DNA of 64,000 nt, from contig AP017605.1 in assembly GCA_002356515.1 (NCBI GenBank), forward strand, positions 5,193,020 to 5,257,019, written 5' to 3'. A program made the translations under genes and the position numbers. Below the pieces are notes generated by a model that was not told where the DNA came from, did not search any database, and saw nothing but the letters and a program-made list of their open reading frames with translations. Positions 41,443 through 44,522 of this stretch are shown piece after piece. The stretch's first letter is position 1. Each line of letters begins with the position of its first letter. This stretch comes from Mesorhizobium loti (GTDB taxonomy: Bacteria; Pseudomonadota; Alphaproteobacteria; Rhizobiales; Rhizobiaceae).

Positions 41443-42693
41443 ATGAAGATAGTGGTGCTCGGGGCCGGCGTTGTCGGTACGGCGGCCGCCTATTACCTGG
41501 CGGCCGACGGTCACGAGGTCACCGTGATCGAGCGGCATCCTGCGCCGGCGCGCGGCACCAGCCAGTCCAATGCAGGCCTGGTTTCTCCGGGCGATGCCAC
41601 CGCCTGGGCCTCTCCAGCGGCGCTGAAGACGTTCCTGCGCGCGCTCTGGAACCATGATCTCGGCATCAAGGTGCGGCTGCGCTTCGATCCCTATTTCCTC
41701 GCCTGGAGCCTGCGTTTCCTGCGCCAGTGCACGGTGGCCCGGCTGCGCACCAACAGTGAGGTCAAATTGCGCCTGGCGCTCTATTCGCGCGAGTGCATCA
41801 ACGCCATCTCCGCCGACACTGGCATCCACTATGACGAGCGCAAGAAAGGCATTCTCTATTTCTTCCGCTCGCAGCACAGCCTCGACACCGGCACCGACAA
41901 TTACCGCTATCTGGCCGAGCATGGCCTGCCGATCGAGATTGTTGGCCGCGACCGGCTGGTCGAGCTGGAACCAGGCCTTGCCGGGGTTAAGGAGAAGATC
42001 GCCGGCGGCGTCTATTCGCCGATCGACCAGACCGGCGATTCCAGAATGTTCGTCGACAATCTCGCCGCCTATATCAGCGAAAAGCTTGGCGTCAAATTCC
42101 TGTTCGACACCACGGTCGAGGGCCTCGATATCGACGGCGACCGCGTGCGTGCGGTGATGACCTCGGCTGGTCCGATTGCAGGCGACGCCGTGGTCATTTC
42201 GATGGGGCCGGAAAGCGGCCTGCTTGGCCGCCGTTACGGCATCGACCTGCCGGTCTATCCGGTGAAGGGCTATACCGCGACGATTCCGCTGGAAGACGAG
42301 AGCAAGGGGCCAACCATGGGCGGCGCCGACGAGGACCAGTTGATGGCCTATTCCAGGCTGGGTAACCGATTGCGGCTGGCGTCGACCGCCGAATTCACCG
42401 GCTTCGACCGAACCCACAAGCCCAGCGACTTCGCCACCATGTTCAGGACCGCCAAGGATCTGTTCCCCGGCGCCTTCGACGAGAAGAAAGCTGTACTGTG
42501 GGCAGGCCTACGGCCAATGATGCCGAACTCGGTGCCGGTCATCGGCCAGGCGCGCTACAAAAACCTTTATCTCGACACCGGCCACGGCCATGTCGGCTGG
42601 ACCATGGCCTGCGGCTCGGGGAAATTTCTGGCCGACCTCGTTGCCGGCCGCAAGCCCGAGATCGACCCGCAGGGATTGGTCTACAGGGGATAA
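41443..42693 (+). CDS. dadA: D-amino-acid dehydrogenase (small subunit type)
   Basis: 416-aa FAD-dependent oxidoreductase of the DadA family, which deaminates D-amino acids and passes electrons to the respiratory chain. The FAD site is VVLGAGVVGTAAAYYLAADGHEVTVIER at the N-terminus; TSQSNAGLVSPGDATAWASP is the DadA signature; YPVKGYTATIPL and GLRPMMPNSVPVIG, then GHGHVGWTMACGSG, complete the domain. ATG 41443 has GGGGGA close upstream. Two nt separate it from the racemase/arginase fusion gene, so both are made together and a D-amino acid made by the racemase domain could be its substrate. Confidence 0.92.
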   Translation: MKIVVLGAGVVGTAAAYYLAADGHEVTVIERHPAPARGTSQSNAGLVSPGDATAWASPAALKTFLRALWNHDLGIKVRLRFDPYFLAWSLRFLRQCTVARLRTNSEVKLRLALYSRECINAISADTGIHYDERKKGILYFFRSQHSLDTGTDNYRYLAEHGLPIEIVGRDRLVELEPGLAGVKEKIAGGVYSPIDQTGDSRMFVDNLAAYISEKLGVKFLFDTTVEGLDIDGDRVRAVMTSAGPIAGDAVVISMGPESGLLGRRYGIDLPVYPVKGYTATIPLEDESKGPTMGGADEDQLMAYSRLGNRLRLASTAEFTGFDRTHKPSDFATMFRTAKDLFPGAFDEKKAVLWAGLRPMMPNSVPVIGQARYKNLYLDTGHGHVGWTMACGSGKFLADLVAGRKPEIDPQGLVYRG

Positions 42694-42695
42694 AG

Positions 42696-44522
42696 ATGTC
42701 GGGACCGCAAGTCGCCATCGACCTTGGCCGCATCGAGCGTAACGCCCGCACCATCGTCGGCCGCTGCGCCCTGTCTGGCATCAAGGTGTTCGGCGTCACC
42801 AAGGGTGTGTGCGGCATGCCGCAAGTGGCGCGCGCCATGCTGCGCGGCGGCGTTGTTGGCATTGCCGAATCGCGGTTCGAAAACATCCGCCGGCTGCGCG
42901 ACAGCGGCATCAATGCGCCGATCATGCTGCTGCGCAGCCCGCCCATGGCACGCATCGAGGAGGTGGTGCGCACCGTCGACATTAGCCTGCAATCGGAACT
43001 CGCCACCATCCGCGAGATCTCGCGCATCGCCGAGCGCATGGGCCGCGTGCACGACATCATGCTGATGATCGATCTCGGCGATCTCCGCGAAGGCATCTGG
43101 CCGAGCGACCTGATCCCCACTGTCGAGCGGATCCTTGAGTTCAAGGGCGTGCGCATCGCCGGCATCGGCACCAATCTCGGCTGCTTCGGCGCCATCATGC
43201 CGACGCCGGAGAATCTCGGCCAGCTCGTCGCCCATGCCTACAAGACCGAGCGCCTGTCCGGCAAAAGCCTCGACTGGATTTCCGGCGGCGCCTCGTCATC
43301 GCTCACGCTGCTGCTCGAAGGCAAGCTCCCGGCCGGCATCAACAATCTCAGGGTCGGCGAGGCGATCCTGCAAGGCGGCGTCGAGACCTTCCGCGATGTG
43401 CCATGGCCGGAACTTGAGCCGGATGCCTGCCGCCTGACCAGCGACATCATCGAGGTCAAGCTCAAGCCGTCGCGGCCGATCGGCGAGTCCGGCTACGATG
43501 CTTTCGGCAACCAGCCGGTCTTCCCCGACGAGGGCGACAGGCTGCGCGCCATCGCCAATATCGGCCGCGAGGACGTGCTGGTCGAAGGGCTGACGCCGAT
43601 CGCCAAGGGGATTCGCGTGCTCGGCGCCTCCAGCGACCATCTGCTGCTCGACGTGCAGGACGCCGAACCGCGGCCCACTGTCGGCGACCGCGTCGCCTTC
43701 CGCATGAGCTATGGTGCCATGCTGCTGGCGATGACGTCGGAGTATGTCGAGAAGGCGCCGATGCATGACGTCGCCGACTTTTCAGGCCGCAAGATGGTGT
43801 CGATCTCGGCCGAACAGGAGGCCGGCGGCATCCTCGCCCGCGAGGGAACCGGCGCGCGGCTGGAAGCGATGAATTTCGACGTCGTGGAACTCGCCGATGT
43901 CGAGCGGCCGCCCTCCGGCTTGATCCGGCTGAGTGCTGGCGCTGATCGCCGCATCGCCCACAAGGCGCTGGCGGCGACGGCGCGCGCGACGCATTCCTTC
44001 GGCCTGATCTGGATCGATTCCATCGCCGCTCTGATGCCCGAGGACGAAGAGGGCATTGATCTGCCGGAGGCCTCGGTGCTGGCGCGCGCGCTCGGCCTTG
44101 ACCACAAGGCCGGCTCGCTGCAGCCGCAGCTGTCGCCCGAAAATGTCGTCATCGTCGGCCTGCGCCATGCCGATCCGGCCGAAGCGCGGGTGTTGAAGGA
44201 TTCGCGCGTTTCGGCCTTCACCATGACCGATATCGACGCCATGGGCATGCGCGACCTGATGCATGAGGCGATCCGCATAGCCACATCGGGCACGCAAGGT
44301 TTTCATGTCAGCTATTCGCCGACGGCCACCGAATTCGCCGGCTGGGCGGCCGGCTCCGGCGGGCTGACGGTGCGCGAGACGCATCAGGCGATGGAGGCGA
44401 TCGCGCTCTCCGGTGGCTTGCTGTCCATGGATGTTTCTGGCCTGGTCGCGGATCTGGAGCCTCGGATCGGCACCGACACGGTCAACTTTGTCATGTCTGC
44501 CTTCGGCAAGCGGATCCTGTGA
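42696..44522 (+). CDS. Ornithine-racemase-like domain fused to a degenerate arginase domain
   Basis: 608 aa in two parts. Residues 1-355 are a fold type III PLP racemase: PLP lysine K36 in VTKGVCGMP, GISGGASSSLT-type phosphate loop (ISGGASSSL, 195-203), LRVGEAILQG (218-227), KPSRPIGESGYDAFGNQPVF (257-276), and SSDHLLLDV. The KPS-PIGE-G-DAFGN-PVF block is like clostridial ornithine racemase rather than alanine racemase. Residues about 365-608 have the ureohydrolase (arginase) layout (VSISAEQEAGGILAREG, IWIDSIAAL, FTMTDIDAMGMRDLM, GGLTVRETHQAMEAIA, SMDVSGLV), but the metal ligands are gone: DAHAD-type is DSIAA (441-445) and the D-D-DP-type motif is SYSPTATEF (539-547). The start at 42696 has AGGGG upstream. 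Racemase probably active; arginase part probably structural, regulatory or ligand-sensing (inference). Confidence 0.85.
   Translation: MSGPQVAIDLGRIERNARTIVGRCALSGIKVFGVTKGVCGMPQVARAMLRGGVVGIAESRFENIRRLRDSGINAPIMLLRSPPMARIEEVVRTVDISLQSELATIREISRIAERMGRVHDIMLMIDLGDLREGIWPSDLIPTVERILEFKGVRIAGIGTNLGCFGAIMPTPENLGQLVAHAYKTERLSGKSLDWISGGASSSLTLLLEGKLPAGINNLRVGEAILQGGVETFRDVPWPELEPDACRLTSDIIEVKLKPSRPIGESGYDAFGNQPVFPDEGDRLRAIANIGREDVLVEGLTPIAKGIRVLGASSDHLLLDVQDAEPRPTVGDRVAFRMSYGAMLLAMTSEYVEKAPMHDVADFSGRKMVSISAEQEAGGILAREGTGARLEAMNFDVVELADVERPPSGLIRLSAGADRRIAHKALAATARATHSFGLIWIDSIAALMPEDEEGIDLPEASVLARALGLDHKAGSLQPQLSPENVVIVGLRHADPAEARVLKDSRVSAFTMTDIDAMGMRDLMHEAIRIATSGTQGFHVSYSPTATEFAGWAAGSGGLTVRETHQAMEAIALSGGLLSMDVSGLVADLEPRIGTDTVNFVMSAFGKRIL

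Follow-up and report, generated by a model that had tools for sequence, protein, structure and literature searches.

A racemase fused to a metal-less arginase domain in Mesorhizobium loti: a candidate basic-amino-acid racemase with a possible assembly module

Introduction

What does an arginase domain do once it has lost its metal site and been joined, in a single chain, to an amino acid racemase? The question is raised by a 64,000-nucleotide stretch of Mesorhizobium loti DNA (the window), in which a gene for such a protein lies directly behind dadA. Few pseudo-ureohydrolases have a known function. A first-pass annotation of the locus, made from the letters alone, had described an ornithine racemase fused to a metal-less arginase and suggested that the second domain might act as a sensor or a scaffold. 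Pseudo-arginases and racemases of this kind are each already known; a description of their fusion, or of one with a selectively kept interface, was not found in the literature that we searched by title and start of abstract, which comprised papers outside subscription.

Results

The features on which the analysis turns are the following.

41443..42693, + strand: dadA, D-amino acid dehydrogenase; likely start codon at 41443, within a longer ORF from 41380
42696..44522, + strand: racemase/pseudo-arginase fusion gene, a single ORF of 608 amino acids
42696..43769, + strand: PLP racemase domain, residues 1-358, ornithine-racemase-like, of alanine racemase fold
42801..42803, + strand: codon of K36, the expected PLP-binding lysine, K in 82/82 fusions
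43770..43790, + strand: linker, residues 359-365, with pLDDT below 50 at 358-364
43791..44519, + strand: pseudo-arginase domain, residues 366-608
44016..44030, + strand: D441-A445 (DSIAA), replacing DAHAD; among 82 fusions D441 is found in 80, H443 in 2 and D445 in 2
44235..44237, + strand: D514, aligned with subunit-interface D199 of Bacillus caldovelox arginase, which we take to be human D204; D in 82/82 fusions
44310..44336, + strand: S539-F547 (SYSPTATEF), replacing the SxDxDxxDP ligand motif; D541 in 2/82 and D543 in 10/82 fusions
44373..44378, + strand: R560-E561, aligned with trimer-contact residues R249-E250 of 1cev, presumably human R255-E256; 82/82 fusions
44394..44396, + strand: E567, aligned with E256 of 1cev, presumably human E262, the interface partner of Arg308; 82/82 fusions

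The proposal that one 608-residue chain joins a racemase to an arginase-fold domain was borne out by the sequence and by a structure model, in which the two halves adopt an alanine-racemase fold and an arginase fold at a pTM of only 0.60. The placement of dadA also held, with a gap of 2 nt before the fusion gene, and the two genes are probably co-transcribed. Taken from 41380, the DadA reading frame scores 458 bits with NF001933 (cut-off 383) and 251 bits with Pfam DAO, and the protein is 70% identical to the DadA of Shinella. The labels of the window neighbours galE, hemA and rhaK were assigned by eye. Two annotated records name the fusion gene only as alanine racemase. The genome of the window has one copy of the fusion and a separate arginase with all of its ligands (L002).

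The best NCBIfam match of the racemase half is the Orr model, NF040742 (racem_Orr). The protein shares with that family the same PLP domain (residues 4-353), the PLP lysine K36 and the alanine racemase fold, but its 392.1 bits lie below the cut-off of 480, as do the scores of all five fusions scanned (342-456 bits), and it carries an extra domain of 240 residues. Sampled fused and stand-alone proteins also separate on the tree of the racemase half, where 19 fused representatives lie on one side of a branch and 13 stand-alone rows on the other (100/100), or 16 rows once clostridial, fusobacterial and other ones are added (95/93). A single fusion event appears likely rather than certain from these trees, which are rooted at the midpoint and in which three of the added rows are long.

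A search of other genomes found the same fusion in proteobacteria and spirochaetes: in Mesorhizobium, Aminobacter, Pseudaminobacter, Labrys, Shinella, Taklimakanibacter, a Burkholderiaceae MAG and four Spirochaetes MAGs, with three more divergent examples (L022, L023 and L141). The scan, with one genome per species, kept the best 80 of 139 relatives, a set rich in rhizobia in which distant and stand-alone forms are under-sampled; 78 of these 80 match from residue 1 or 3 to 607 or 608, and the remaining two are cut off by contig ends. Frameshifts interrupt two of the 78, both in draft Mesorhizobium genomes (L071 and L103), and may reflect either an error of sequencing or a real loss. Full fusions are uncommon, being present in 7 of 297 sampled genomes of the order and 4 of 398 of the phylum. 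Matches came from 13 of 199 genomes in the family sample: six with one-piece fusions, six with stand-alone racemases and one (G043) with the two halves at contig ends; G031 and G156 were recognised as one-piece fusions only by reading their ORFs.

The C-terminal domain passes the arginase-fold model Pfam PF00491 (57.9 bits against a gathering score of 22) and stays below the cut-off of the arginase equivalog TIGR01229 (71.4 against 227.6). Only one of six metal ligands is left in the window protein, and the reported disappearance of the binuclear metal site from a retained fold was thus confirmed. The loss is conserved in all 82 fusions compared, a set from which two frame-shifted and two truncated copies were left out: 64 proteins keep one ligand of six and 18 keep two, mostly D441 alone. 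Homologues with intact ligands, beside which this gene would look merely damaged, were sought, and none of the 82 keeps more than two of the six; the window gene is not a damaged copy. The first ligand His is present in four fusions only (L092, L098, L100 and L105), perhaps as a remnant of stepwise ligand loss. Position 582, aligned with the catalytic Glu277, is Gly in 77/82 fusions, and entropy is high at 443, 445 and 541 among 19 representatives to which the relatives were reduced. Arginase chemistry would not be expected from this domain, because its metal ligands are gone.

The residues aligned with arginase subunit contacts behave differently from the ligands. D514, R560, E561 and E567 are all present in 82/82 fusions, and among the 19 representatives (below 85% identity) they fall within the 14 invariant positions of 239 in the domain, a coincidence with a post hoc hypergeometric probability of 7.6e-6. 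By alignment, the dead domain has thus kept residues that correspond to arginase subunit contacts; the mapping is to 1cev, with residue numbers counted by eye. By the same correspondence they would be D204, R255, E256 and E262 of the human enzyme. As controls, seven of seven chosen true arginases (that of the window genome and six of 18 arginase-part records) show all ligands (HDHDDD) together with D/R/E/E, whereas four of four agmatinase-family proteins, likewise HDHDDD, read WIQR, VRER, RHER and RPER at the four positions, keeping 0, 2, 1 and 1 of them and the R-E pair in one protein. Some of the retention could serve folding, since all four residues are an ancestral trait of arginases.

Accounts of known arginases give these positions their meaning. 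The text of PMC7925462 available to us describes bonds from Arg308 to Glu262 in mammalian arginase I, and in the rat enzyme also to Asp204 of the neighbouring subunit, and states that the B. caldovelox enzyme, which has no Arg308 and ends at Met299, holds free L-arginine at that interface. The same enzyme is described as a hexamer, and such arginases as trimers or dimers of trimers, in a portion of PMC6988801. Studies cited by title in PMC11271267 concern Glu256 and Asp204 in the oligomers of arginase and an allosteric site for arginine in the B. caldovelox enzyme; a passage of that paper also cites mutation of E278 as breaking the B. caldovelox hexamer. In the alignment, read by eye, E278 falls on P589, which varies among the fusions, and this counts against an assembly role. 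At the C-terminal end, residue 608 aligns with 299 of 1cev and 309 of human 1wva, and Ile607 sits about where Arg308 would be; the missing Arg308 is not special to the fusion, because bacterial arginases in general lack it. The domain therefore resembles RocF-type arginases (B. caldovelox 1cev, B. subtilis 6dkt, T. thermophilus 2ef5) in fold, end point and D/R/E/E, and differs from them in the lost ligands and E277 equivalent, its shorter length and the attached racemase; it would descend from a bacterial arginase of that type.

Both halves are constrained. The racemase half has a median dN/dS of 0.093 and the C domain one of 0.102 (1478/1485 pairs, 55 colinear genes), values at which the arginase half is, by its codons, under purifying selection like the racemase half. 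Identity to six closer relatives is 41-69% in the C domain and 71-85% in the racemase half.

The gene neighbourhood was compared at 85 loci. DadA is encoded with the fusion at 74 of them, and also at L110, where the fusion is cut by a contig end; the 10 loci without dadA include L060, L108 and L109, each with less than 1 kb of upstream DNA. At L082 and L083 (also L019 and L020), from M. camelthorni and M. alhagi, galE and the fusion have no dadA between them. The window's own galE-dadA-fusion type, without aruI or speB at the locus, accounts for 56/85, and aruI-like and speB-like genes occur at 16 loci each. At eight loci (Shinella, Labrys, Rhizobium and Sinorhizobium) the order is permease, USP, speB, aruI, aldehyde dehydrogenase, ATP-grasp, C45 acyltransferase, dadA, fusion and ridA, and in the Burkholderiaceae MAG it is speB, aruI, aldehyde dehydrogenase, dadA, fusion and ridA. 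Genes for DadA, a 2-ketoarginine decarboxylase, an aldehyde dehydrogenase and a guanidinobutyrase stand beside the racemase at these eight full ten-gene loci and at L018, L096 and L104; of these four D-arginine catabolic genes, the window locus has dadA alone. It looks like a shortened form of the full operon, because intermediates exist (speB-aruI-dadA-fusion at L080 and galE-speB-dadA-fusion at L078).

The AruI of Shinella passes NF005712, 5-guanidino-2-oxopentanoate decarboxylase (737 against a cut-off of 500), and the best PDB match of its SpeB is the guanidinobutyrase 3nio (511 bits; second match 303). Elsewhere in the window genome, a decarboxylase scores above the NF005712 cut-off at 774 bits, and the best counterpart of Shinella SpeB there (48%) matches guanidinopropionase 3nip (481 bits) better than guanidinobutyrase (323). 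Upstream of the decarboxylase gene (L139 8046-9626, in the region L139 6533-9626 of C1 near 4794045) lies an ORF whose product, judged by eye, looks like an arginine deiminase or dimethylarginine hydrolase.

Other features of the operons were seen in passing. Two extra genes lie between the aldehyde dehydrogenase gene and dadA at L016 (6214-8691) and its equivalents in Labrys, Shinella and Aestuariivirga. The ATP-grasp-type protein of the operon, named biotin carboxylase, scores 766 bits with NF005096 (cut-off 684), and the C45 autoproteolytic acyltransferase 173 against 85. On a plasmid labelled Roseateles (L018, NZ_CP084753.1; Betaproteobacteria, organism unverified), nine of ten operon proteins are 91-97% identical to those of Shinella and the tenth 85%, which may mean a mistaken label or a recent transfer. 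At L095, from Shinella lacus, the fusion and ridA are present; the 10 kb upstream gave no tblastn match to any other operon gene at a coverage of half the query or more.

Discussion

Our reading of these results is that the protein is a basic-amino-acid racemase, for which arginine is the likely substrate in this lineage, and that its pseudo-arginase domain is a module for oligomer assembly and possibly a sensor of arginine; we give this a probability of about one half.

As to the substrate, arginine is probably more likely than ornithine here, because full operons of relatives carry a guanidinobutyrase-like SpeB, a 5-guanidino-2-oxopentanoate decarboxylase, DadA and a Rid-family gene, and because the window protein misses the Orr cut-off; the decarboxylase above the NF005712 cut-off elsewhere in the window genome speaks for it as well. 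Against arginine count the 56 of 85 loci that carry neither aruI nor speB, the closeness of the window genome's SpeB counterpart to guanidinopropionase, and the lack of dadA beside the fusion in M. camelthorni and M. alhagi. The neighbourhood suggests an arginine racemase feeding D-arginine catabolism. The racemase half would convert L-arginine to D-arginine, which DadA would oxidise by way of iminoarginine to 2-ketoarginine. Relatives that have the full operon would then decarboxylate 2-ketoarginine, oxidise the aldehyde to 4-guanidinobutyrate and cleave this with guanidinobutyrase to GABA and urea. The first steps would match those of Pseudomonas, where, in the part of PMC5619798 available to us, D-arginine dehydrogenase (DauA) releases iminoarginine and Rid2 and Rid3, though not RidA or Rid1, deaminate it to 2-ketoarginine. 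In that account, unlike here, DauB returns 2-ketoarginine to L-arginine, whereas in the rhizobial type the racemase would supply the D-arginine; and the operon gene is assigned to the Rid family as a whole rather than to a subfamily such as Rid2 or Rid3.

An alternative is that the whole family are ornithine racemases, or racemases of broad range over ornithine, lysine and arginine, that a separate ureohydrolase handles the guanidino compounds, and that the C domain is a structural addition only. Orr is, after all, the best-matching family of the five fusions scanned. At the spirochaete locus L105 the fusion comes immediately after Ord, OrtB, OraE and GlmL-related genes of D-ornithine fermentation, the OraE (D-ornithine 4,5-aminomutase) scoring 1269 bits against 800 and the GlmL-related protein 546, under the ornithine-specific cut-off of 600 and over that of the GlmL family; with OraE, OrtB and Ord adjoining the fusion, ornithine is favoured there. 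At L111 an NhaC-type antiporter gene lies directly upstream, with arginine deiminase and ornithine carbamoyltransferase genes beyond on the other strand. For the proteobacterial fusions, however, the neighbours point to arginine: the SpeB and decarboxylase of the full operons, judged from their families, would act on guanidino compounds and not on ornithine products. We regard this alternative as rather unlikely. The ornithine substrate of the first-pass annotation probably does not hold for this lineage and is favoured for L105, and the most cautious description is of a basic-amino-acid racemase that more likely acts on arginine here and on ornithine in at least one spirochaete. In that Spirochaetales MAG (L105 3266-11890), the fusion takes the place in which one might expect a stand-alone ornithine racemase.

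As to the second domain, the notion of a sensor or scaffold was a reasonable one, which the interface-aligned residues kept throughout the 82 fusions strengthen and make specific. Enzymes of the alanine-racemase fold are dimers. On our preferred reading, the pseudo-arginase domain would tie such dimers into a larger oligomer, with dimer contacts in the racemase half and trimer contacts in the arginase half building a hexamer or larger body. The domain may also sense arginine at the subunit interface, a possibility raised because free L-arginine sits at the same interface in B. caldovelox arginase; that arginine bound there would regulate the racemase is a guess by analogy. A more explicit version, in which free L-arginine held by D514 and E567 would stabilise pseudo-arginase trimers binding racemase dimers, so that racemisation would be switched on when arginine is plentiful, is tentative and on balance doubtful.

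A different role would be that of an adaptor, in which the C domain joins an active ureohydrolase (guanidinobutyrase, SpeB-like or true arginase) in a mixed complex. The precedent is MetCb of metformin hydrolase, which in the portion of PMC11271267 available to us has lost five of six ligands and serves as the binder in a heterohexamer with MetCa; it shares with the fusion the arginase fold, the loss of most ligands and, on our reading, a role in complex assembly, although it is an unfused, separate subunit paired with an active ureohydrolase. At L023 (7988-10679) and L141 (7849-10676) the gene immediately upstream of the fusion encodes an agmatinase-family ureohydrolase with intact ligands, and at L078 a ureohydrolase gene stands one gene further away, before dadA; at L022 the nearest is about 7 kb away. 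The true arginase of the window genome shares all four contact residues. The four agmatinase-family proteins compared lack the full set, however, and loci of the Mesorhizobium type have no ureohydrolase gene nearby, yet their C domain is under purifying selection, which makes an adaptor improbable. A heterocomplex with SpeB was ranked low, as the full interface set is missing in SpeB kin and most loci do not have the gene.

That the C domain is the decaying remnant of an accidentally fused arginase, with no present role, might be read from its eroded ligands, its lower conservation and the two frame-shifted draft copies; it is nevertheless very improbable, since neutral decay is rejected by a dN/dS of about 0.10, the domain is full-length in 78 of the best 80 loci (of 139), two of them frame-shifted, and 14 positions are invariant across proteobacteria and spirochaetes. 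A new catalytic activity at a remodelled pocket, with which the changed catalytic positions, intact fold and strong constraint would agree, is just as remote, because the former ligand and E277-equivalent positions vary or are non-catalytic (G582 in 77/82).

A further arginase fold without a manganese cluster is the arginase-like protein of Trypanosoma brucei, which reportedly, by the title of Hai's 2015 paper, evolved that state; we know of no fusion of it to a racemase.

In the fusion family, a dead arginase is joined to an enzyme whose substrates belong to the same field, and is maintained in distant bacteria, with its chemistry erased and its subunit-contact residues kept, which opens the question of a dead enzyme surviving as an assembly or sensor part to ordinary mutagenesis. 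The neighbourhood of the gene suggests, for rhizobia and their relatives, a route of arginine breakdown that is led by a racemase.
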